64,000 nt of DNA, taken from assembly GCA_030613245.1 (NCBI GenBank), contig JAUWMI010000001.1, positions 186,001-250,000 on the forward strand, in the 5' to 3' direction. Within the stretch, counting starts at the first letter, position 1, and each line of letters opens with the position of its first letter. The notes beneath the pieces are model-generated. The model was not told the origin of the DNA. It ran no database searches and saw only the letters and a list, made by a program, of their open reading frames with translations. Shown here piece after piece: positions 5,892 through 42,984 of the stretch. The translations under genes and the position numbers were made by a program. The stretch is from Candidatus Sumerlaeota bacterium. GTDB taxonomy: Bacteria; Sumerlaeota; Sumerlaeia; MWCT01; JAUWMI01.

Positions 5892-6443
5892 AGTTTTGAT
5901 CTCCTCTGGTTTCCGTCATGCCTGCACAGCGACGCCGTTACCCGACTGCAGCACAGCCGCCTGATGTGCTCCCTTTGTCTTCTCGCTCGTGTGAACGCAG
6001 TTCTTTGAGCGCAGGCCAAGCAAAGCATAATCTTCCTCTTGACTACATTGTTCAAAGTGGCTCGGTCAAGGCAATTTTTTGAGGACTTCCTTGGAAGCCA
6101 GAATTTGTCGATCCGTCGGGCCAGGTGGCCCCCAGACAGAGCAATCATTGTTTCGCAGCCGTGCGCCTGAGGTAATTCTTTTTCGCCGACAAACGAGATG
6201 GTTCTTGACAGCGCTCCGCCAGATAACGTATCAACAATTGGGGGTAATTCGGGACACCAAGCGAATTCGCGCCTGATAAAATCCCATAGTTGATAGACCC
6301 GCAGAGGGCCAGGGTACGGATTGTTTGTCGACTTTCCTCGAGAAATTGGAAGGTCTTTGGAGTCGTGTCTTGCGTTTTGCGTTCCCCGCACGTTCAGCCA
6401 AACAATCTAAGCGAAAGACAAAATAAGGAAAGGAGAGCTCAGG
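5892..6443. other. Gene-free stretch
   Basis: 552 bases between the divergently oriented fumarase alpha gene and the first exported-protein gene. Open frames here have protein-unlike composition and no usable ribosome binding site. Promoters for both sides are expected here, but I could not identify convincing boxes. Confidence 0.5.
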
Positions 6444-7421
6444 ATGAGAACGCAAAGACTGATAATTTATACTATTGTGGTTATATGCATCATAGTTTCA
6501 AAAATTCATACTCATGCCAACTCTGTGTATAAGACAGCTGGTAGTGATACACTTGTTGGTTCGATATCGGGCAGAGTCATACCATCTGATGTTCCTTGTG
6601 TGATTTGCGCAGAAGAGCGAGGGGGAGAATATGGGGGAGTTGCGTACGCAAAACCTGATGGCTCTTTCAAGATAAGTAGACTAACACCTGGGACTTACGA
6701 CCTTGTCCTAGTACCGGATTTTAATGTGCTCCATACCCCATATTATGTTAACGCTCCTGAATCAGCCGGTCTTAAATATACTGTATTCGCAGGTCAATAT
6801 ATTCCAGAAGAATACAAAGGTAACTCATTATCAAATGATGATAGGAATCTTTTAGAAAATATCATCCAGCGAGATATTCCAGAGGCTTTTGCTAGCGCTT
6901 ATACCAATAAGTCTACAAGAATTGCTGATTTTTCTCATTCGATCTCACCAGTTTTCAAAGAGGAATTAACCTCTGCTTCACTGGGCGGGACACTACCCAA
7001 CGTAAAAAGAGGGTTTGACAAAGGAATGGAAATATCCAGACATACACAGGATAGAACTATTTGGCTACTTATAGGCAATGAGAGAAAGGCCGCAGCTATA
7101 TGCCATGTGAAAGAGGAAATCACTATGCCCTTCTATTTTATAGGCCGGAAAGAAGAAAATAGAATAGAGAGGATTAATGCGGAAAAAACGGATGATTACG
7201 CTTATTTTGACCTTTGTCTTCTAGAAAAATTCAATGAGCAATGGAAATTAACTTTACGACAGGCAGTGAGAGATCGAGTCTTTACCTTCCCGAGTGTATG
7301 CAACGCAGTTAAGAATCTTCAGATCAAATTCTGCATTGAAGGCCAGCTTGTAGGAGTGGTAGTAAGCGAGAACGAGAATACGGATATCGGAATAGTCACG
7401 TTAGAGGAATGGAAGAAATAA
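6444..7421 (+). CDS. Exported protein with carboxypeptidase-regulatory-like domain
   Basis: A 325-residue protein with an N-terminal export signal (hydrophobic LIIYTIVVICIIVS). Residues about 38-90 (GSISGRVI...PDGSFKISRLTPGTYDLVLVP) match the Ig-like carboxypeptidase regulatory/CnaB-like fold often found in surface proteins. The remaining two thirds are not recognised; they contain a Lys/Glu-rich stretch and no catalytic motif that I can name. AAGGAGAG precedes the ATG. The gene is A+T-richer than the housekeeping genes to its right, hinting at an accessory origin. It opens a plus-strand block of five exported proteins. Confidence 0.8.
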   Translation: MRTQRLIIYTIVVICIIVSKIHTHANSVYKTAGSDTLVGSISGRVIPSDVPCVICAEERGGEYGGVAYAKPDGSFKISRLTPGTYDLVLVPDFNVLHTPYYVNAPESAGLKYTVFAGQYIPEEYKGNSLSNDDRNLLENIIQRDIPEAFASAYTNKSTRIADFSHSISPVFKEELTSASLGGTLPNVKRGFDKGMEISRHTQDRTIWLLIGNERKAAAICHVKEEITMPFYFIGRKEENRIERINAEKTDDYAYFDLCLLEKFNEQWKLTLRQAVRDRVFTFPSVCNAVKNLQIKFCIEGQLVGVVVSENENTDIGIVTLEEWKK

Positions 7422-12934: not shown

Positions 12935-15808
12935 TCATTTCCCTTGGGGTGTAAGAGCAACGGGCAGGGTGCCTGAAGGTTGAAATGTGCCGAAGAGGGC
13001 GTCGGCCACTGCGTCCTGCACTGCTGCGGCATTTCCATAGGCGCAGAGATACGTTTCGAATTGCGGCACATCGTTGATGACGTACGGGCTGGCAAAGGAA
13101 ATGAGAATTGCAGGTTTACCAACGGCAAGGATTTCCTGGAGGAATTGTATTTGTTCGGGATTCAGGTTGACGTTTCCGCGTCCAATGATCAGGCGAGGGT
13201 AAGCGGCAATAACGACAACGTCGCTCTGTTTTGCCATTTCGATTGCGCGTGATCGCTGGTCTTTTTCGACTTTGTCGCCCATGAAAAGCCACTCGGAGTT
13301 TGGCGTGTGCTTCTTTACTTCATCGCCAAAAGAATACAGATCACGCCAGATCATTAGTCGTCCCACCTGATTGGCCAGTCCAATAACAGCCACGCGTTGG
13401 TTGCGCTTGAGCGGGATCAGGCGCTCCGTGTCTTTCACCAGGGTGACGCACTGCTTGGCGATATCCTTGGCTGCTTCGTAATTGGCCTTATTGCCAACGT
13501 TCTTCGCGATGGCGTTGAGATCTACCACGCGATTCTGGTGCAGGCCAACTTGGGTTTTGGCGCGAAGGAGGCGAGCCACAGACGCATCCAGGCGCTCGTG
13601 CGTGATTCGACCATCACGGACCGCCTTGAGGATTGCCTTATAAGCGCTTCCGATGTCAGCAGGCATAAGGATTATGTCGCATCCGGCTTCGATTGCCCGG
13701 ATGATTGACTCTTCGTAAGGTAGTTCTTTCATAATACCACCCATGCTCATAGCGTCGGTAAAGAGCAGGCCTTTGAAATTCCACTCGTCGCGAAGCAGTC
13801 CGGTCATGATTTTTGGCGAGACAGTGGCAGGCAAAGGCTTACGGTCGAACGCTGGTGCCCAGAGATGTGCCGTCATGATCGCGGCCACATTGGCTTTTTC
13901 AATTGCCTGTCGAAAGGGGTAGAGTTCAATCTTCTCAAGCTCCTTGCGTGAACCAGTAATCTTGGCAAGCGACGAATGAGAATCAACATTTGTATTTCCA
14001 TGGCCGGGAAAGTGTTTAGCAGTACACAGCAAGCCATGTTTCTGTGCGCCACGAACGAATGCCATCCCCAGTTCAGCCACCTGCTTGGGGTTTTCGCCAA
14101 AGGAGCGGATATTGATAATTGGATTTTGCGGGTTGTTATTCACGTCCAGAACCGGGGAGAATGTGCAATGGACGCCGATGGCGCGTGCCTCAATAGCCGT
14201 AATTTGTCCCGCCAGATAGGCATCTTCTGGTCTGCCGGATCCGCCGAGAGCCATATTGCCCGGCAGGTCGGTGGCATTATCAACATAGTTGCCGACGCCA
14301 CGTTCATAGTCTGCGCTGATCAAGAGCGGGTATTTTGCGGCCTGCTGGAAGATGTTCAGGTCGCGAGCAATGTCGTGGGCCTTGCCAAGGAAGACAGCCA
14401 GGCCACCCAGATGGAGCTCTTTAATTTGCTTCAGAGCCAGAGGAGCAATGCCGCGGTATGCAGGGCACAGCAGCTGGCCAACCTTCTCCTCGAGTGTCAT
14501 TGCGGCCAGCGTTTTCTGTACCCATTCTTTATCTGCCGGGAGCAGGGTTGTGGGACCAGGTTTTTCTTTGGCTTCTGCACGCTGCGACGCCTCGAGCACT
14601 TTCTGATAGAAGCGTCTGCGGATATAGTTCGTCTCCGCATTCTCGCGCTTGGGGTGTACGGCGTTAGTCAGGAGAATAGCAAAGATCTTCGAGCGCGGAT
14701 TGACCCATATGCACGTGCCGGTGAATCCGGTATGGCCAAATGAGCCTTCGCCGAGTCCTCCAGTGCCGCCCATTCTTTTTGTGCCGAGGCGCCAGCCCAG
14801 CCCTTGAGAAGTACTAATAGAATCATCCACCTGCGGGGTTGAAAATTGCTCAATTGTCTCGGGTTTGAGAATCCGCACGCCGCCATACTCACCACCATTC
14901 ACGAGCATCTGGCAGAAAATAGCCAGATCGTGTGTAGTTGAGAATAGCCCGGCATGGCCTGCAACACGACCCATAGCATGGGCATTTTCATCGTGCACCT
15001 CACCCTTCATCAGGCGATCGAGCCAGGGCACGATCTCCGTAGCTGCGCAGCGGGATTTCAGCGTATCCGGAGGATTAAACATTGTATCGGTCATTTTGAG
15101 CGGTGCGAAAATGTGCTTGCGGGTGAAGCTGTTCAGGTCTGTTCCCGACACTTTTTCAACCAAGAGTCCAAGGGTGATAAAGCCAAGATCGCTGTAGGTG
15201 CGTTTAGTGCCGGTAGGGGCGCTGAGCTCAGTGTCGCAGATAGCCTTATAAAAGGCTTCGCGGCCCTGATGTTCGCTATACAGTCGTTTCCACCCTGGAA
15301 GTCCAGAGGTGTGGGTTAGAAGTTGCTTAACGGTAATCGTTTCCTTTCCATGGGCGCCGAATTCCGGCAGATACTTGGCCACCGGGTCGTCGAGCTTAAT
15401 GTGGCCCTGTTCAACAAGGATCATCACCGCAGTGGTAGTGGCAACCATTTTCGTGAGGGACGCAAGGTCGAAGATAGTCGAAGGAGTCATTTTCTGTTTC
15501 GTTGGCGTGATCTGCGCATATCCAAATGCGCGGATCGGCAGCGCAACACCATCTTTAACAATAATACATACGGCTCCGGGTGCTTTTCCTAATTTCAGCG
15601 CATTCTGGATCTCTTCGTAGGCAAGGGTGATCGTATCGGAACTGAGACGTGCTTGTTCCGGAGTACCATCCCGTATTATGGTGTTAGTGGACTGTGTTCG
15701 CGTTTGCATTGGAATCGTCTCACCTCCGGCCAGAGAGTTAAAAGCGATCAGACACGTAATACTCAGCAAGAAAGAGAAACAACGACAAAACTGTGCTTCA
15801 CACCGCAT
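12935..15808 (-). CDS. Exported serine hydrolase (beta-lactamase family) fused to GH3 beta-N-acetylglucosaminidase
   Basis: A 957-residue two-enzyme fusion. The start is the ATG at 15808, preceded by GGAGGAGG; it gives a signal peptide (FSFLLSITCLIAFNSLAGG) and leaves 43 bases after galE. Residues 65-400 are a class C beta-lactamase-like serine hydrolase: nucleophile Ser117 in SLTK, Tyr205 in YSD, and HTG at 359-361. Residues 430-760 are a NagZ-like GH3 domain: KHFPGHGNTNVDSH at 598-611, and LLFTDAMSMGG with candidate nucleophile Asp685. A GH3 C-terminal domain completes the chain. Expected role: trimming peptidoglycan amino sugars and peptides or esters in the periplasm. It ends the long minus-strand run. 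Confidence 0.92.
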   Translation of the reverse strand: MRCEAQFCRCFSFLLSITCLIAFNSLAGGETIPMQTRTQSTNTIIRDGTPEQARLSSDTITLAYEEIQNALKLGKAPGAVCIIVKDGVALPIRAFGYAQITPTKQKMTPSTIFDLASLTKMVATTTAVMILVEQGHIKLDDPVAKYLPEFGAHGKETITVKQLLTHTSGLPGWKRLYSEHQGREAFYKAICDTELSAPTGTKRTYSDLGFITLGLLVEKVSGTDLNSFTRKHIFAPLKMTDTMFNPPDTLKSRCAATEIVPWLDRLMKGEVHDENAHAMGRVAGHAGLFSTTHDLAIFCQMLVNGGEYGGVRILKPETIEQFSTPQVDDSISTSQGLGWRLGTKRMGGTGGLGEGSFGHTGFTGTCIWVNPRSKIFAILLTNAVHPKRENAETNYIRRRFYQKVLEASQRAEAKEKPGPTTLLPADKEWVQKTLAAMTLEEKVGQLLCPAYRGIAPLALKQIKELHLGGLAVFLGKAHDIARDLNIFQQAAKYPLLISADYERGVGNYVDNATDLPGNMALGGSGRPEDAYLAGQITAIEARAIGVHCTFSPVLDVNNNPQNPIINIRSFGENPKQVAELGMAFVRGAQKHGLLCTAKHFPGHGNTNVDSHSSLAKITGSRKELEKIELYPFRQAIEKANVAAIMTAHLWAPAFDRKPLPATVSPKIMTGLLRDEWNFKGLLFTDAMSMGGIMKELPYEESIIRAIEAGCDIILMPADIGSAYKAILKAVRDGRITHERLDASVARLLRAKTQVGLHQNRVVDLNAIAKNVGNKANYEAAKDIAKQCVTLVKDTERLIPLKRNQRVAVIGLANQVGRLMIWRDLYSFGDEVKKHTPNSEWLFMGDKVEKDQRSRAIEMAKQSDVVVIAAYPRLIIGRGNVNLNPEQIQFLQEILAVGKPAILISFASPYVINDVPQFETYLCAYGNAAAVQDAVADALFGTFQPSGTLPVALTPQGK

Positions 15809-15851
15809 GATATCCTCCTCCAAGTAGATTGTTGTGCTTCTTCTGTTGCTA

Positions 15852-16832
15852 TTATTTATAACCCCTGGGATGTGCGAGCAACCACTTCCAGGCATTTTCG
15901 ATGATTTCAGGGAGCGCAGGAAAGCCAGGCTTCCAGCCCAGCTCCTCGGAAATTCGTTTGGCAGAGGCAACGAGTACGGCTGGGTCACCCGGGCGCCGCG
16001 AGCTAATGGTTGTCGAAATTTTCTTGCCTGTAACCTGCTCAGCTATGCGAATAACCTCAAGGACTGAGAATCCGTTGCCATTGCCGAGGTTGTAGGTGCT
16101 GCTCTGCTTGGTTCGTTCGAGACGGTCGAGGGCCAGCAGGTGAGCATCAGCAAGGTCGCGAACGTGGATGTAGTCGCGAATGCAGCTGCCATCGGCAGTA
16201 GGGTAGTCGTCGCCAAAGACCTTGATGCACGGCTGTTGGCCTGCGGCCACTTGCAAGACCAGAGGAATCAGATGAGTCTCAGGATGGTGATCTTCCCCCA
16301 GTCGATCTGTAGCACCGCTGGCGTTAAAGTAGCGCAGCGAAACGTACTTGAGCCCGTATGCGCAGTCGCAGTCTTCCAGGAATTGCTCAAAGATCAGTTT
16401 AGTTCGGCCGTACGGATTAGTAGGACGGGTTGGATGGGTCTCCAGGATAGGCACGCTTTCGGGCTCACCGTAAACGGCAGCAGATGAAGAAAAAATTATC
16501 TGCTGAACATCACATTCCAGCATGCTCTCAACCAGCGTCATGCTGTTTTTTACATTATTGTTATAGTAATCCAACGGCTTCTCCATTGACTCGCCAACGA
16601 GGCTCAGCGCTGAAAAGTGCATCACTGCGCTACAGTCATACTCACGCAGGATTTGCATGACCAGATTCTTATCAGCCATATCGCCGTGGACAAACTGTGC
16701 TTCAGGAACGACCGCACGGCGATGGCCACGCGACAGGTTGTCGAGTACCACAACCGTTTTGCCAGCGGCGATGAGCTGCTCCACTGTAACACTGCCGATA
16801 TAGCCTGCGCCACCGACGACGAGAATCGTCAC
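15852..16832 (-). CDS. galE: UDP-glucose 4-epimerase
   Basis: Short-chain dehydrogenase-type NAD enzyme interconverting UDP-glucose and UDP-galactose (or the N-acetyl forms). The NAD-binding GGAGYIGS is at residues 7-14, the catalytic Ser lies in FSSSAAVYG, and the Tyr141-x-x-x-Lys145 pair is in NPYGRTK. 326 residues, full length. It starts with GTG at 16832 behind AGGAGGAG. It sits downstream of glycosyltransferase genes, so it probably supplies a sugar nucleotide for envelope glycans. Confidence 0.95.
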   Translation of the reverse strand: MTILVVGGAGYIGSVTVEQLIAAGKTVVVLDNLSRGHRRAVVPEAQFVHGDMADKNLVMQILREYDCSAVMHFSALSLVGESMEKPLDYYNNNVKNSMTLVESMLECDVQQIIFSSSAAVYGEPESVPILETHPTRPTNPYGRTKLIFEQFLEDCDCAYGLKYVSLRYFNASGATDRLGEDHHPETHLIPLVLQVAAGQQPCIKVFGDDYPTADGSCIRDYIHVRDLADAHLLALDRLERTKQSSTYNLGNGNGFSVLEVIRIAEQVTGKKISTTISSRRPGDPAVLVASAKRISEELGWKPGFPALPEIIENAWKWLLAHPRGYK

Positions 16833-16891
16833 CTGCTCTCCTCCTGGTTCATAGAATCGCTAGCGGGGTGTTCCGCCACCACAGAACATTT

Positions 16892-17572
16892 TTATTGAAA
16901 GAATCGATATTTAATCAACGTATAGAGCGACACAAACCCATCTTTCCAGTATACTTTTTTCCCTTCGTACCGGCCGCGCGGGATGTAAGTAATGGGAATC
17001 TCCTGAATGCGCAGTCCTTTCTTGATCAGCTTGACTGTGAGTTCAACCGTAAAAGCAAAGTCATTGTTCCTGATGTCCAGGTCCGCAATAGCATCACGCT
17101 TAAAGACCTGATAGCACGTTTCGACGTCGGTAAGGCGCGTGCCGTAGAGCAGATTTACCATCCAGTTGATCACTTTATTACCCCAGTATTGTAAGAACCC
17201 CATGTTGGGTTTACCCTGGAGGAAGCGAGAGCCAAATACGACAGTTGCGTTGCCAGCTTCAATCGGCGCAATCAGATTAGGGTAGTCATTAGGATCGAGT
17301 TCAAGATCCGCATCCTGGAATATTACAATGTCGCCTGTAGCAATTTTGAGTCCCTGTTTTAGTGCATTTCCGCGCCCCATGCGTTGCGCTTGAAAGATCA
17401 TGCGAATGTCAGGACGGGTTTCCTGCTTGCGGAGAAGCTCTTTTGTGCCGTCGTAGGAATTGCCGTCAACAACAATGATCTCTTTTTCGATAGCGACAGC
17501 GCGGACTTTCTCAAGCAGGAGTTCGATGGTGCGTTTCTCATTATAGACTGGCACAATAACGGACAGCTTCAT
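16892..17572 (-). CDS. DPM1-like family 2 glycosyltransferase
   Basis: 227 residues from ATG 17572, whose ATGA overlaps the stop of the aminotransferase upstream, so the two are translationally coupled. GT-A features: MKLSVIVPVYNEKRTIELLLEKV, IIVVDGNSYDGT, RGNALKQGLKIATGDIVIFQDADLELDP and the acceptor-side pattern DVETCYQVFKRDAI...IPITYIPRGRYEGKK. This is the dolichol/undecaprenyl-phosphate sugar transferase group. It lacks the C-terminal transmembrane helices of ArnC/GtrB, so it is a soluble, peripheral form. Likely product: a polyprenyl-phosphate sugar used by the nearby GT39/DUF2723 membrane enzymes. Confidence 0.9.
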   Translation of the reverse strand: MKLSVIVPVYNEKRTIELLLEKVRAVAIEKEIIVVDGNSYDGTKELLRKQETRPDIRMIFQAQRMGRGNALKQGLKIATGDIVIFQDADLELDPNDYPNLIAPIEAGNATVVFGSRFLQGKPNMGFLQYWGNKVINWMVNLLYGTRLTDVETCYQVFKRDAIADLDIRNNDFAFTVELTVKLIKKGLRIQEIPITYIPRGRYEGKKVYWKDGFVSLYTLIKYRFFQ

Positions 17573-18768
17573 GATTGCTTGAGGGCCTCTGTGATCTCTC
17601 GCACGATCCACTCGATATCTTCTTCGTGCAGAAGCGGATGCAGTGGCAGAGTCAGCTGGCGCCGGCTGTAGTCTTCTGAGATTGGCAGAGATTGGGGTGG
17701 GCCAGGTAGCTGTGTCCGATAGTATGTAAACTGGTGGGCAAGGCGATAGTGGTGGCTCGTCTGGATGCCAGCCTGCTGGAGTCTCAGGCTTACCCGATTG
17801 CGCGTCAGTTCGTCAGAGAGAAGAATCGGCATGATATGATAGGCCGGCGTTCCGAAATCCGAGCCGGTAGTAAAAGGTATTTGCACTTCGTCTATGTTGC
17901 TCAGCAAACGCTGGTAAAGTAGGAATAAGGTTTTGCGCCGGGCATTGTTTTCGGCAAGCTTCTTTACCTGAACCAGTCCGATTGCAGAAGCGAGCTCTGA
18001 AGGGCGATAATTAAAGCCAAGCATTGTCATGTCATAGTCGGAAAATCCTTTTACCTGGCGCTCCCAGGTTCCCGAGGTTATGCCGTGTGAACGGAGCAGG
18101 CGTGCAGTCTGCGCGATGTCAGAGTTGTTGGTGACAAGCATTCCACCCTCGCCGGTTACGAGATTCTTGTTTGCGAAGAAGCTTAGAGCCCCTGCGGCAC
18201 CGATCGTGCCAAGCGCACGTCCATCAGGTGCGCGCGCGCCAGGGGCATGCGCCGCATCTTCAATAATAGTAATTTTTCTATCTGTGGCCTTGGAGCCTTT
18301 GGATACCCGAGGCGTAAGTGCCTCTTCAAGTGCGGCCATGCGACAGGGAAAGCCCGCGTAGTGAACCGGCATTATCGCAGCGGTCTTTTCGGACTTGTCC
18401 GCCAAGGTGGATACTTTACATCGTACATCTTCTGGGCTGATGGTGGGTTCCAGCAGATCAGTAATATCGCAGAAGATCGGTGTTGCCTGGCAGTAGAGAA
18501 TTGCATTGACTGTGGCGACAAACGTAAGGGCAGGCACAAGAACGTCGCAGCCCGGTTTAACTCCGGCAGCGAGGAGAGCCAGATGAAGCGCCGCTGTGCC
18601 GCTCGAGGTTGCTACGGCGTACTTGCAACCAAGCATTTCACAGATCGCATGCTCGAATTCCTCTGTCACCGGCCCCAGCGACAGCCATTTGGAGCGGATC
18701 ACTTTCGCTACGGCCTCCTGCTCTTGCTCGTCAAAGGCAATGTCAGACAATAAAATCTTCCACTTCAT
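17569..18768 (-). CDS. DegT/DnrJ/EryC1/StrS family sugar aminotransferase
   Basis: PLP enzyme that aminates keto-sugar nucleotides, as ArnB does. From ATG 18768 it has 399 residues; LLSDIAFDEQEQEAVAKVIRSKWLSLGP is the typical N-terminus. YAVATSSGTAALHLAL binds PLP phosphate, IIEDAAHAPGA carries the cofactor Asp171, and Lys201 in FFANKNLVTGEGG is the Schiff-base lysine. Farther upstream in-frame starts are less family-like. Its last codons overlap the GT2 gene. Together with that GT2 and the GT39 upstream it resembles an ArnB/ArnC/ArnT set, although arnA and arnD are not present. Confidence 0.92.
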   Translation of the reverse strand: MKWKILLSDIAFDEQEQEAVAKVIRSKWLSLGPVTEEFEHAICEMLGCKYAVATSSGTAALHLALLAAGVKPGCDVLVPALTFVATVNAILYCQATPIFCDITDLLEPTISPEDVRCKVSTLADKSEKTAAIMPVHYAGFPCRMAALEEALTPRVSKGSKATDRKITIIEDAAHAPGARAPDGRALGTIGAAGALSFFANKNLVTGEGGMLVTNNSDIAQTARLLRSHGITSGTWERQVKGFSDYDMTMLGFNYRPSELASAIGLVQVKKLAENNARRKTLFLLYQRLLSNIDEVQIPFTTGSDFGTPAYHIMPILLSDELTRNRVSLRLQQAGIQTSHHYRLAHQFTYYRTQLPGPPQSLPISEDYSRRQLTLPLHPLLHEEDIEWIVREITEALKQS

Positions 18769-36932: not shown

Positions 36933-38171
36933 ATGAAGCGTGCCCTGATTCTCACTGTTGGGACACCAGCGGACAGCAAGAATGACATCGTTGAGGCACT
37001 TGTGGCCGACATTAAGGCTTACAAGCCGGACTTTGTCTGTCTATTTGCGACGAAGATGAGCCATAGAAATGCAGAGAAAATCGTTCAGCGAATGGAGCTC
37101 CAGCAGGAGAGCTACGAAATTGTGCGCCTTGAAAGTCCTCATGACCTGGACGAGATCTTCCGTAAAGTGAATGCTGCCATTCGACGTCTCACCGCTAAAG
37201 GTTATTCAGCGAGCAACATTTCCATCAACTACACAAGCGGGACCAAGGTGATGAGTAGTGGGGCGGTGCTGTCGGCGGTGTTCAACGAGTGCGAGCGATT
37301 GCGCTACATCTTTGCAGGCGCGAGGAATCAGGCCAATAAGGAGTATATCCTCACCTCACCGCGTGCGATATTTGCCTTCAAAGATATGATGCTGGCCAAG
37401 ACGCTGATACGGGAGATGCGCTTTATGTCGGCACGCGACGTTTTGTCCGGCATTGATCGCTCGCTTCTTACTCACGTTGAACTCAGCCTGATGAACAACC
37501 TCGATCATCTGGCCGCAGCCTACCAGCAGTGGGATAATTTTCATCACCGCGATTTCCTTGATCTGTATGGCCAGGTTCAGTTTGGCGATGCAGAGCTAGA
37601 GGTTTTCAGACTGCGTGATTCCCAGCGTGCCTTGCTCGAACAGGTTGCAACCAGCATCACCAGTGAAGAGTTTGTCCCAGCGCTTTTTGCTGATATTTTT
37701 AATAATGCGATTCGCCGTACCATCGAAGTCCGCTATGATGATGCAATTGCGCGGCTGTACCGCGTAACCGAGATGTTGGCGCAATGGGTGCTCGCGACCC
37801 GCTATGGCATTTCGACGGATAATGTGGATACGCGCAAGGTGCCTCCGAAGCACCGGCCTAATTTTGAAGCGCTCCGGAGCGTGGAGGACGGACTGGTAAA
37901 GATTGGACTGCGCAAGGGCTACGAGCTGCTCGCCGCTCTGGGTGCGCCGCTGGGAGCCGCGTTTGTTGTGGATAAGGAAATGCGGGAGCTACTCGAGGAG
38001 CGCGGCAGGTCAATTCTCGCCCACGGAATACAACCAGGAACTGCGCTTACCTGCCAGCATTTTATGAAATGGACCGCCTCAATGATGTTACGCGAGATTG
38101 ACGATTTCCTCTCACTTGCCAATTCCCTCCAATTCCCCTGGCTGCGCGAAAAGCAGCAGCAGTTTGTTTAA
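36933..38171 (+). CDS. Orphan CARF-domain protein with HEPN-like motif (Cas02710/Csm6-like)
   Basis: 412 residues. The N-terminal 140 match a CARF (Rossmann-like ring-nucleotide sensor): RALILTVGTPADSKNDIVEAL, DFVCLFATKMSH, and ISINYTSGTKVMSSGAVLSAVF, where GTK is the ligand-loop pattern of the family. The C-terminal part includes YDDAIARLYRVTEMLAQW and EERGRSILAHGIQP, with Arg359-x4-His364 (or Arg357-x6-His364), the RX4-6H catalytic motif of HEPN ribonucleases. This is the arrangement of Cas02710 (TIGR02710)/Csm6-type effectors, which degrade RNA after binding cyclic oligoadenylate. No CRISPR array, cas gene or cyclase is in the window, so it is either an orphan effector or answers to a signal made elsewhere. 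Family call is from motifs; nuclease activity is inferred. Confidence 0.85.
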   Translation: MKRALILTVGTPADSKNDIVEALVADIKAYKPDFVCLFATKMSHRNAEKIVQRMELQQESYEIVRLESPHDLDEIFRKVNAAIRRLTAKGYSASNISINYTSGTKVMSSGAVLSAVFNECERLRYIFAGARNQANKEYILTSPRAIFAFKDMMLAKTLIREMRFMSARDVLSGIDRSLLTHVELSLMNNLDHLAAAYQQWDNFHHRDFLDLYGQVQFGDAELEVFRLRDSQRALLEQVATSITSEEFVPALFADIFNNAIRRTIEVRYDDAIARLYRVTEMLAQWVLATRYGISTDNVDTRKVPPKHRPNFEALRSVEDGLVKIGLRKGYELLAALGAPLGAAFVVDKEMRELLEERGRSILAHGIQPGTALTCQHFMKWTASMMLREIDDFLSLANSLQFPWLREKQQQFV

Positions 38172-38318: not shown

Positions 38319-38332
38319 ATGCTAATGCAAGC

Positions 38333-38636
38333 TAATCACCACAAAGACACGAAGAACACAAAGAAATGCTGCAGAATTGGGAAAGATTATGAACTGTTTC
38401 CCTTCTCCTTATAGGATTTACCTGGTATTGACCGCATTTTTTATGTTTTTCATCCTGTTAATCTTGTTAATCCTGTCTAATAATTTTTGTGCTTCTTTTT
38501 AAATTTTTTTTGGACAAGATTTACATGATTTACAAGATTCTTTACGTTTTTTCATCCTGTCTAATAGTTTCTGTCTTTTTTTTGTCAAGAAATCTTCGTG
38601 GCCTTCGTGCCTTCGTGGTAAAATACTAATCCAAGT
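38333..38636. repeat. 304-bp MITE-like unit, copy 1
   Basis: First of two head-to-tail units. The left end CACCACAAAGACACGAAG is an imperfect inverted copy of the right end (reverse complement ACCACGAAGGCACGAAG). Inside, ATCTTGTTAATCCTGTC and GACAAGATTTACATGATT form a second inverted pair. There is no open reading frame; the sequence is A+T-rich. Confidence 0.85.
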
Positions 38637-38940
38637 TAATCACCACAAAGACACAAAGCACACGAAGAAATGTTACAGAATTGGGAAAGATTATGAACTG
38701 TTTTCCTTCTCTCCTTGTAGGATTTACCGGGGATTGGGGCGATTCTTTAGACTTTTTTATCCTGTTAATCTTGTTAATCCTGTCTAATAATTTTTGTGCT
38801 TCTTTTTAATTTTTTTTGGACATGATTTACATGATTTACAAGATTCTTTACGTTTTTTTATCCTGTCTAATAGTTTCTGTCTTTTTTTTGTCAAGAAATC
38901 TTCGTGGTCTTCGTGACCTTCGTGGTAAAAATTTAAACCC
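38637..38940. repeat. 304-bp MITE-like unit, copy 2
   Basis: Direct repeat of 38333-38636 at a period of 304 bases, roughly 90% alike by eye, with substitutions and small indels. Together with flanking repeats it fills the 1140-base gene-free stretch 38172-39311. Confidence 0.85.
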
Positions 38941-39015
38941 AGTTAATGCATTTGGTGTTGCGACGGGAATCCGCCGCGGCGGATCACCCCTCGCGCTCCC
39001 CTCCTAAACCTTTAG
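38934..39015. repeat. Dispersed hairpin repeat, copy 2
   Basis: TAAACCCAGTTAATGCATTT, then GGTGTTGCGACGGG, the inner palindrome on CCGCCGCGGCGG, then CACCCCTCGCGCTCCCC to CCTTTAG. Shares both ends with 43451-43534 and the right part with 3954-4009; the inner hairpin differs between copies. Confidence 0.8.
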
Positions 39016-40034: not shown

Positions 40035-40069
40035 GGGATAATACGGGGGGATAATAGGGGGACAGGTTA

Positions 40070-40243
40070 ATGATAGAGGGTCTGGAGGAAGCACACGAGA
40101 AAGAAATCAGGAGAAACACGTAGACGGGGCGTCGGACGACCGGCGCGTCCGACAGGCACGACCGATTTCATAAAAAATTAGAAACACTCCTCGGCCGTCA
40201 TCTGAAACGTAAGAAACCGCGACGAAAAAATGGAAATACATAA
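40070..40243 (+). pseudogene. RAYT transposase tail relic, family 2 copy 1
   Basis: Reads MIEGLEEAHEKEIRRNT, a stop, then disrupted sequence, then KKLETLLGRHLKRKKPRRKNGNT and TAA. The order EIRRNTxTxRPTG...DFxKKLETLxGRxLKxKKxxRK is that of the C-terminus of REP-associated tyrosine transposases. Flanked by GGGGACAG-type and CCCGTCCCC ends. Other copies: 40777-40937, 42683-42830. Confidence 0.8.
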
Positions 40244-40273
40244 CCCGTCCCCATTTTGCCACATATAAAAAAT

Positions 40274-40284
40274 GTTAGGCAGAC
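40274..40284 (+). other. Integron cassette 5' border (core site GTTAGGC)
   Basis: GTTAGGCAGAC, whose first seven bases fit the GTTRRRY core of attC sites. It is the exact reverse complement of GTCTGCCTAAC at 40692-40702 on the other side of the GIY-YIG gene. Such extended complementarity between cassette start and the left end of its attC is expected of integron cassettes. Confidence 0.6.
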
Positions 40285-40303
40285 CAGAAAGGAGATTGTT
40301 GTT

Positions 40304-40687
40304 ATGAGTGAAATAGAAGATCTGTTAAATGGCTTTAAAGAATCACTAAAAAACATAAAAGCTTTTGAGTGGCATGAATTCACAATAAAAGAATTAAATG
40401 AACAGAAAGAGTGGGAGGAATGGAGCAGCAAAATAGGAGTGTATATATTTAAAGAAAAAGAAAAAATTGTATATGTCGGCCGTGCTTTGAATACTCTTGG
40501 TTCTAGAGTGTATAGCCAGATTAATTCTTTTGGGGATCCGGAATGGAATAGGGTTATTAAGAATAATGAAAATACAGTTAAGGTTATTTGTATGGAAAAT
40601 GATATGAGGCATATAGCTTCAGCATTAGAAGTTTATCTGATTGAAAAAATAGATCCAAGACCAGAATTTAATAAAAGAATACAATAA
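40304..40687 (+). CDS. Single-domain GIY-YIG nuclease in an integron-like cassette
   Basis: 127 residues. GIY-YIG core: Gly45-Val-Tyr in KIGVYIFKEKEKIVYVGRALNTLGSRVYSQI, with the YIG equivalent Tyr57-Val-Gly, Arg60, and a metal-binding Glu in the helix SALEVYLIEKIDPRPEFNKR. This superfamily cuts DNA; single-domain members are often found in mobile or defence settings, and the specific target is unknown. Start at ATG 40304 has AAAGGAG. Strikingly A+T-rich compared with its surroundings, so probably acquired. It is bounded by GTTAGGCAGAC and GTCTGCCTAAC. Confidence 0.87.
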   Translation: MSEIEDLLNGFKESLKNIKAFEWHEFTIKELNEQKEWEEWSSKIGVYIFKEKEKIVYVGRALNTLGSRVYSQINSFGDPEWNRVIKNNENTVKVICMENDMRHIASALEVYLIEKIDPRPEFNKRIQ

Positions 40688-40691
40688 AAAA

Positions 40692-40740
40692 GTCTGCCTA
40701 ACTAGTCAATGCACCGGACCACAGTTCGCTGCGGGGCAGC
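40692..40740 (+). other. Left half of an attC recombination site (truncated)
   Basis: GTCTGCCTAAC, then TAGTCAATGCACCGGACC and a G/C-rich segment, begins 4 bases after the GIY-YIG stop. GCCTAAC is the R'' core of attC; the following AATGCACCGGAC resembles the L''/stem region of many environmental attC sites. The matching right half (ending GTTRRRY) is missing: a RAYT relic starts at about 40745. The nearest candidate right core is GTCAGGC just beyond the relic at about 40963. Confidence 0.55.
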
Positions 40741-40776
40741 TCAGGTAATACGGGCGGTAATACGGGGACAGGTTAA

Positions 40777-40937
40777 GTAATAGAGGGGCTGGAGGAAGCA
40801 CACGAGGAAGAAATCAGGAGAAACACGTACACGCGGCGTCCGACCGGCACGACCGATTTCAGAAAAAAAAATTAGAAACACTCCCCGGCCGTTGTCTGAA
40901 ACGTAAGAAACCGCGACGAAAAAATGGAAATACATAA
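40777..40937 (+). pseudogene. RAYT transposase tail relic, family 2 copy 2
   Basis: The best-preserved copy: an uninterrupted frame VIEGLEEAHEEEIRRNTYTRRPTGTTDFRKKKLETLPGRCLKRKKPRRKNGNT then TAA. It has no start and no catalytic HUH/Tyr part, so it is only the 3' end of a transposase gene. Begins within the remains of the attC after the GIY-YIG gene. Confidence 0.82.
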
Positions 40938-41084
40938 TCCGTCCCCATATTAGTCTCAATTGTCAGGCAGCCTCTCTGTCTCTAATTATTCCTGGAGAAA
41001 CATATTATAAGTAGAGAGGAGGTAAAAAGCAAGACAGCGCTTTTATCTTAAAAAATCAAACACAATAAAGGAGGCGACAGCGAA

Positions 41085-42578: not shown

Positions 42579-42682
42579 ACCATAGTAGGTTCGGCATTGA
42601 TAAGGGACAGACAACGGATTTGCGATTGGTTAATACTGGGACGTAATACGGGTAATACGGCGGTAATGCGGGGACAGGTTAA

Positions 42683-42830
42683 GTAATAGAGGGGCTGGAG
42701 GAAGAAATTAGGGGAAAACACATTCACGCGGCGTCCGACCGGCAGGACCGATTTCATAAAAAAATTAGAAACACTCCTGGGCCGTCGTCTGAAACGTCAG
42801 AAACCGGGACGAAAAAATGGAAATACATAA
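42683..42830 (+). pseudogene. RAYT transposase tail relic, family 2 copy 3
   Basis: VIEGLEEEIRGKH, a frameshift, then TFTRRPTGRTDFIKKLETLLGRRLKRQKPGRKNGNT and TAA. It lacks three codons present in copies 1 and 2 but keeps better residues elsewhere (TLLGRRL), so the copies diverged independently. It fills the 406-base gap after the FG-GAP gene. Confidence 0.8.
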
Positions 42831-42984
42831 CCCGCCCCCATTTTGACCCCTAGACGGCAACCGTATTTTCTGAGAGGTATGAGAGAACGGGGAATCGTCG
42901 AGACTCCACCAAGGCCAGTCCAAACTGCAAGAGAAATGAAATTGAGGTTGCCGTCACCGCATTTGAGTCAAAGTAGGTGGAGCA

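Follow-up and report, generated by a model that had tools for sequence, protein, structure and literature searches.

How does a small, A+T-rich nuclease gene come to stand by itself in a bacterial genome between ends of the kind that delimit integron gene cassettes? The question arises from a 64,000-nucleotide stretch of a Candidatus Sumerlaeota genome, analysed here in full and called the window, for which a sequence-only reading had reported exact reverse-complementary motifs around an A+T-rich GIY-YIG gene and had proposed an isolated or decaying integron cassette. The motifs are where that reading placed them, GTTAGGC at 40274-40280 and GCCTAAC, the R'' box of an attC site, at 40696-40702, and the complementarity extends over 11 of 11 positions. 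The gene and its boundaries are the following.

40274-40284, plus strand: 5' cassette boundary (GTTAGGCAGAC), which holds the simple site G^TTAGGC and continues its complementarity beyond it.
40304-40687, plus strand: predicted GIY-YIG nuclease gene, 127 codons and a stop, with an AGGAG ribosome-binding-like site upstream.
40692-40702, plus strand: R'' (GCCTAAC) of attC with its extension (GTCTGCCTAAC), the exact reverse complement of the 5' boundary.

A leader of 19 bases separates the 5' 11-mer GTTAGGCAGAC from the ATG at 40304, and four bases separate the TAA stop, which ends at 40687, from GTCTGCCTAAC. The exact 11-mer occurs in the window only at these two ends. When the 164 window ORFs of at least 80 aa were compared, this gene was the only one with an 11-bp exact inverted repeat near both ends, and likewise the only one with GTTRRRY on its 5' side and the complement on its 3' side, in the polarity of a cassette; such ends are well beyond chance. 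Its G+C content is 31% as against approximately 0.51-0.52 in the neighbouring genes, in line with the compositional contrast first noticed.

The 127-aa product was predicted at the outset to be a small GIY-YIG nuclease, and the profiles agree. Its match to the Pfam GIY-YIG family (PF01541) is weak (E 0.0057; 17.4 bits, under the gathering score of 22.6), yet the predicted assignment is supported by UvrC profiles (E 4e-6) and by the match of the modelled fold: sequence comparison with a UvrC domain structure gave E 5e-4, and a Foldseek search with the single-sequence structure model (pLDDT 72, pTM 0.68) returned UvrC GIY-YIG domains first (E 2.3e-4), followed by R.Eco29kI (5e-2) and R.Hpy188I. 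The sequence and its alignment to UvrC give as motif residues GVY (Y47), YVG (Y57), E109 and N123, with the arginine of the GIY-YIG set tentatively placed by that alignment at R68. The protein is apparently an intact GIY-YIG nuclease with candidate catalytic residues and, judging from motif and model, is likely to be active; that it cuts DNA we infer. It is probably a single-strand or structure-specific, or restriction-like, endonuclease, and this is the weakest step of our explanation. Defence or restriction is a tentative suggestion for its role, and a repair or recombination-like function would be a still less likely one. The only PADLOC match was a weak one to REase_II (Type II restriction enzyme; E 5.9e-4), and the cassette holds no methylase or other restriction partner.

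Plasmids, phages and viral contigs yielded no close relatives of the protein, only UvrC domains; exact peptide patterns found no close homologue in genome contigs; and the gene is absent from 39 other genomes of the phylum. Nor was a homologue found in any integron array among 80 integron loci, so that the case for descent as a cassette has to be made from the ends alone. There is no tRNA insertion site, and an Rfam scan of the whole window returned nothing.

On the 3' side these ends amount to more than an inverted repeat, as the flank of the gene is the first half of an attC site, with TAGTCAATGCACCGGACC at 40703-40720 directly after GTCTGCCTAAC.

40696-40720, plus strand: attC 5' half, R''-spacer-L'' (GCCTAAC TAGTC AATGCACCGGACC), 21.8 bits, the best score in the window.
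40721-40745, plus strand: what is left of the central hairpin of attC (ACAGTTCGCTGC...) up to the break; the L'-R' half is lost, and the covariance model has no match.

The score comes from sites of other genomes. A Gemmatirosa integron was reached with the C-terminal half of a true IntI from a relative of the same class (P0002, L002), and an IntI alignment led to the 80 integron loci, which represent many phyla. A strict attC finder insisted on perfect R boxes and so found nothing certain in the first loci. In its form based on the 80 loci, the structural finder identified 43 attC sites in the loci of other phyla and the Gemmatirosa plasmid integron, as against 2 in shuffled sequence. A 25-nt position matrix of the attC 5' half (R''-spacer-L'') was made from these 43 sites, none of which belongs to this genome. 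By this matrix 40696-40720 reaches 21.8 bits, where the median of the training sites is approximately 21 and real attC sites scored with their own locus left out mostly fall between 12 and 28 bits. The next best position in the window has 11.3 bits, the maximum on 164 kb of relatives is 16.8 bits, and in random 64-kb sequences the best score averages 13.8 ± 2.0 bits, with 20.2 as the highest among 60. An L'' box with attC-type spacing and the extrahelical base is thus present after the gene. Near-identical halves occur in real attC sites at two of the loci (L127, GCCTAACAAGGCGCTGCACCGGACGG; L098, GTCTAACCAATCACTGCACCCGACC), and the extended complementarity of the ends is also seen in the Gemmatirosa cassettes (L058).

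The second half of the site is lost. Past the gene, no L'-R' half scores more than about zero by the matrix, whether or not the downstream repeat (see below) is left out, and the fold of 40692-40745 is no better than that of shuffles. A covariance model was trained on 15 attC sites taken from other phyla. It gave no match, and thus no second attC, in the window; it finds attC sites in a relative (G002) at E 5e-8, and it misses the present site because only half of an attC is there. Since L' and R' are lacking, we file the element as a truncated remnant and not as a complete cassette. The attC breaks off approximately at its apical hairpin, where it adjoins a repeat of approximately 200 bp. Two direct copies of this repeat, which the sequence-only reading did not mention, flank the gene.

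40039-40254, plus strand: ~200-bp repeat, upstream copy; it ends 20 bp before the cassette.
40746-40949, plus strand: ~200-bp repeat, downstream copy, abutting the truncated attC.
42653-42841, plus strand: ~200-bp repeat, third copy, after an FG-GAP gene.

An R'-like string, GTCAGGCAGCC, lies at 40962-40972, 13 bp past the downstream copy and two mismatches from the boundary 11-mer (expected 0.003 times per 25 nt). It is possibly the lost R', though no L' box supports this. The repeat may have inserted into the attC loop and displaced L'-R' beyond it, but no L' box fits near GTCAGGCAGCC (-0.3 bits), and the fold does not return when the repeat is omitted.

Both a search for attC sites across the genome and one for intI and other cassettes turned up the kind of remnants that an integron origin would lead one to expect. 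The covariance model, silent in the window, matched on contigs C49 (E 9.4e-8), C19 (1.4e-5), C25 (1.5e-4) and C2 (0.0035), with weaker matches on C2, C49, C52, C37 and C19; the sites are at 5947-7027 and 9433-9501 on C49 (L184), at 5446-5757 on C19 (L185), and on C2 (L187) and C25 (L186). Contig C10 (L017, 1-6475) carries an intI pseudogene, interrupted by three stops and reduced to the N-terminal third (E 1.7e-18), whose identity to a Poribacteria IntI is at most 51%. Divergent to it is a 1205-codon kinase/ATPase/TPR gene, followed by an attC 5' half (21.4 bits) and an SDR gene that has complementary cassette-type ends of its own (GTTAGCATAC / GTGTGCTAAC). C49 retains approximately 24 C-terminal residues of an IntI. 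No IntI match above the curated cut-off was found in this genome, whose assembly is of a 96%-complete genome, or in 40 others, most of the same class. Positions 170000-262000 of contig C26 contain no intI match, no attI and no neighbouring cassette. Integrase-like matches on C84 and C52 were set aside as Xer-like or generic tyrosine recombinases under the IntI cut-off, as was an attC-like string on C20 that sits between ordinary genes. As only attC sites and intI fragments are left, the genome would once have had working integrons that are now remnants. A relative of the same order (G002, contig C5, L021) has a cassette array at approximately 15700-18700 with an IntI C-terminal fragment nearby; its cassettes, named from sequence, include two near-identical DUF488 genes, a glyoxalase, a pyridoxamine-oxidase-like gene and others.

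The attC matrix score, obtained with sites of other phyla, together with the attC sites and the two intI remnants elsewhere in the genome, supports an integron origin. The sequence-only reading had named a lack of attC-like structures, both at the gene and in the rest of the genome, as a ground for refuting it, and this outcome did not occur. We consider it very probable that the gene originated as an integron cassette and that it is now stranded, with half of its attC lost, the intI genes decayed and the excision route gone; the description "isolated or decaying" thus suits it, there being no attC on the left and no intact intI found. One could envision the following course, in which the order of events is our reconstruction. 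The gene would have entered the lineage as a cassette, a single promoterless ORF preceded by G^TTAGGC and followed by an attC, after an integron integrase had used the bottom strand of this attC, in its folded form, for recombination. The L'-R' half would have been lost later, approximately at the apical hairpin where the ~200-bp repeat now starts, and the arrival or recombination of this repeat may be what removed it. With the intI genes of the genome decayed as well, the gene would now be a fixed chromosomal passenger, presumably immobile, since the loss of L'-R' and the decay of intI together mean that normal excision of the cassette should have ceased to be possible.

Whether the cassette was ever part of an array at this place is a separate matter. 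A circular cassette could have been put at a secondary GTT site, its attC being truncated only afterwards, and such insertion is documented, for example for aadB in RSF1010 (PMC10127599). As such a placement would have it, what lies upstream of the 5' boundary does not resemble an attC L'-R' half (-1.7 bits by the matrix), and no attI, intI or second cassette lies nearby. However, a larger array that had eroded and received incoming repeats would give the same picture, and the first cassette beside an attI would likewise have no attC on its left. Erosion of an array and placement at a secondary site are both known processes, and the data are compatible with either; we regard an insertion of this kind as a serious possibility that falls short of being probable.

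The repeats themselves suggest another history, in which the gene is a unit of the ~200-bp-repeat arrays of this genome and moved with them, its integron-like ends being incidental or older. The repeat has sharp borders and 12-bp inverted ends (GGGGACAGGTTA / TAACCTGTCCCC). Its left-end pattern occurs in 26 copies in the genome (the copy at 40039, which has an indel there, is uncounted), and within the phylum it is specific to this genome, a single weak match being found in 39 relatives. Runs of 2 to 6 copies occur on seven contigs, each run in one orientation and with the preceding genes co-oriented. The repeat is found, besides the window, on C59, C88, C3, C56, C69 and C22 (L161-L165, L190), and as single copies on C40, C55, C19 and C97. 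The genes between repeats are mostly A+T-rich (PDDEXK_3, ARMT1-like, Imm11-like, FGE-sulfatase-like and many without a family), and duplicated modules start or stop exactly at the repeat. A gene that lies between two copies of an element present at least 26 times, clustered and co-oriented with the genes before it, could have travelled as one more such module. Against this, the integron-type ends and the attC half are specific and strong, and none of the genes in the other arrays examined has attC ends, so that within these arrays both marks come together at the GIY-YIG gene only. Movement with the repeats as the whole explanation is therefore improbable; it is compatible with an integron history, and the two compete mainly over the last move and not over the origin.

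The arrays resemble an integrase-free cassette array. That the repeat delimits a second cassette system of this kind, made of shuffled units of a gene and a 3' repeat, which took over the stranded cassette, is conceivable, although we hold it to be very doubtful; insertion at gene ends and homologous recombination explain the arrays too. Attempts to assign the repeat to a known element failed: it does not match the Y1 transposases of the genome as a remnant of them, a suspected link to RAYT-type transposases was not confirmed, and its translation matched no NCBIfam model. Finally, one other window ORF is also flanked by an inverted repeat, of 10 bp, but chance, or a place at the ends of an ordinary transposon, is hardly a credible account of the repeat around the GIY-YIG gene: no target-site duplication is visible, and chance explains neither the 25-nt attC half, which lies on the side where it should be, nor the attC and intI remnants elsewhere.

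As a stranded cassette, the gene resembles those of sedentary chromosomal integrons, whose cassettes end in attC sites (59-be), in its small ORF, the G^TTRRRY start, R''-L'' after the stop, extended complementarity and foreign composition; unlike them, it has lost L' and R' and has neither an array nor an adjacent intI or attI. CALIN and single-attC elements, as defined by IntegronFinder (PMC9024848), are likewise cassette material without an integrase, here in a genome with decayed intI, but the attC in the present case is only a half, and a tool of this type would probably not list it as an attC. A GIY-YIG nuclease gene has been described as a cassette, orf6 of the class 4-like integron of Aeromonas sp. 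3925 (PMC10609294), a likeness drawn from its description; orf6, in contrast, sits in the array of a functional integron. In predicted fold and motif the protein is like the UvrC N-terminal GIY-YIG domain, the best match, and R.Eco29kI and R.Hpy188I, whereas it differs from them as a stand-alone protein of 127 aa that has approximately 40 additional residues at its N-terminus and lacks the C-terminal part of UvrC as well as any recognised restriction partner.

Cassette genes can thus outlive their own integron as fixed chromosomal genes. When the pair of cassette ends is combined with a half-site matrix, half-sites come to light that an attC covariance search does not see, and stranded cassettes of this kind are probably undercounted. 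With the present gene the cassette pool, where small GIY-YIG nucleases are already on record, gains a further one.

Two other features of the window lie upstream of the gene. A CARF-HEPN protein (Csx1/Csm6-like; PADLOC E 5e-77) is encoded at 36933-38171, with no CRISPR array in the stretch checked near it (38.1-39.35 kb), and 38319-38947, in which there is no ORF, consists of two approximately 90% identical copies of an A+T-rich tandem unit of approximately 306 bp.
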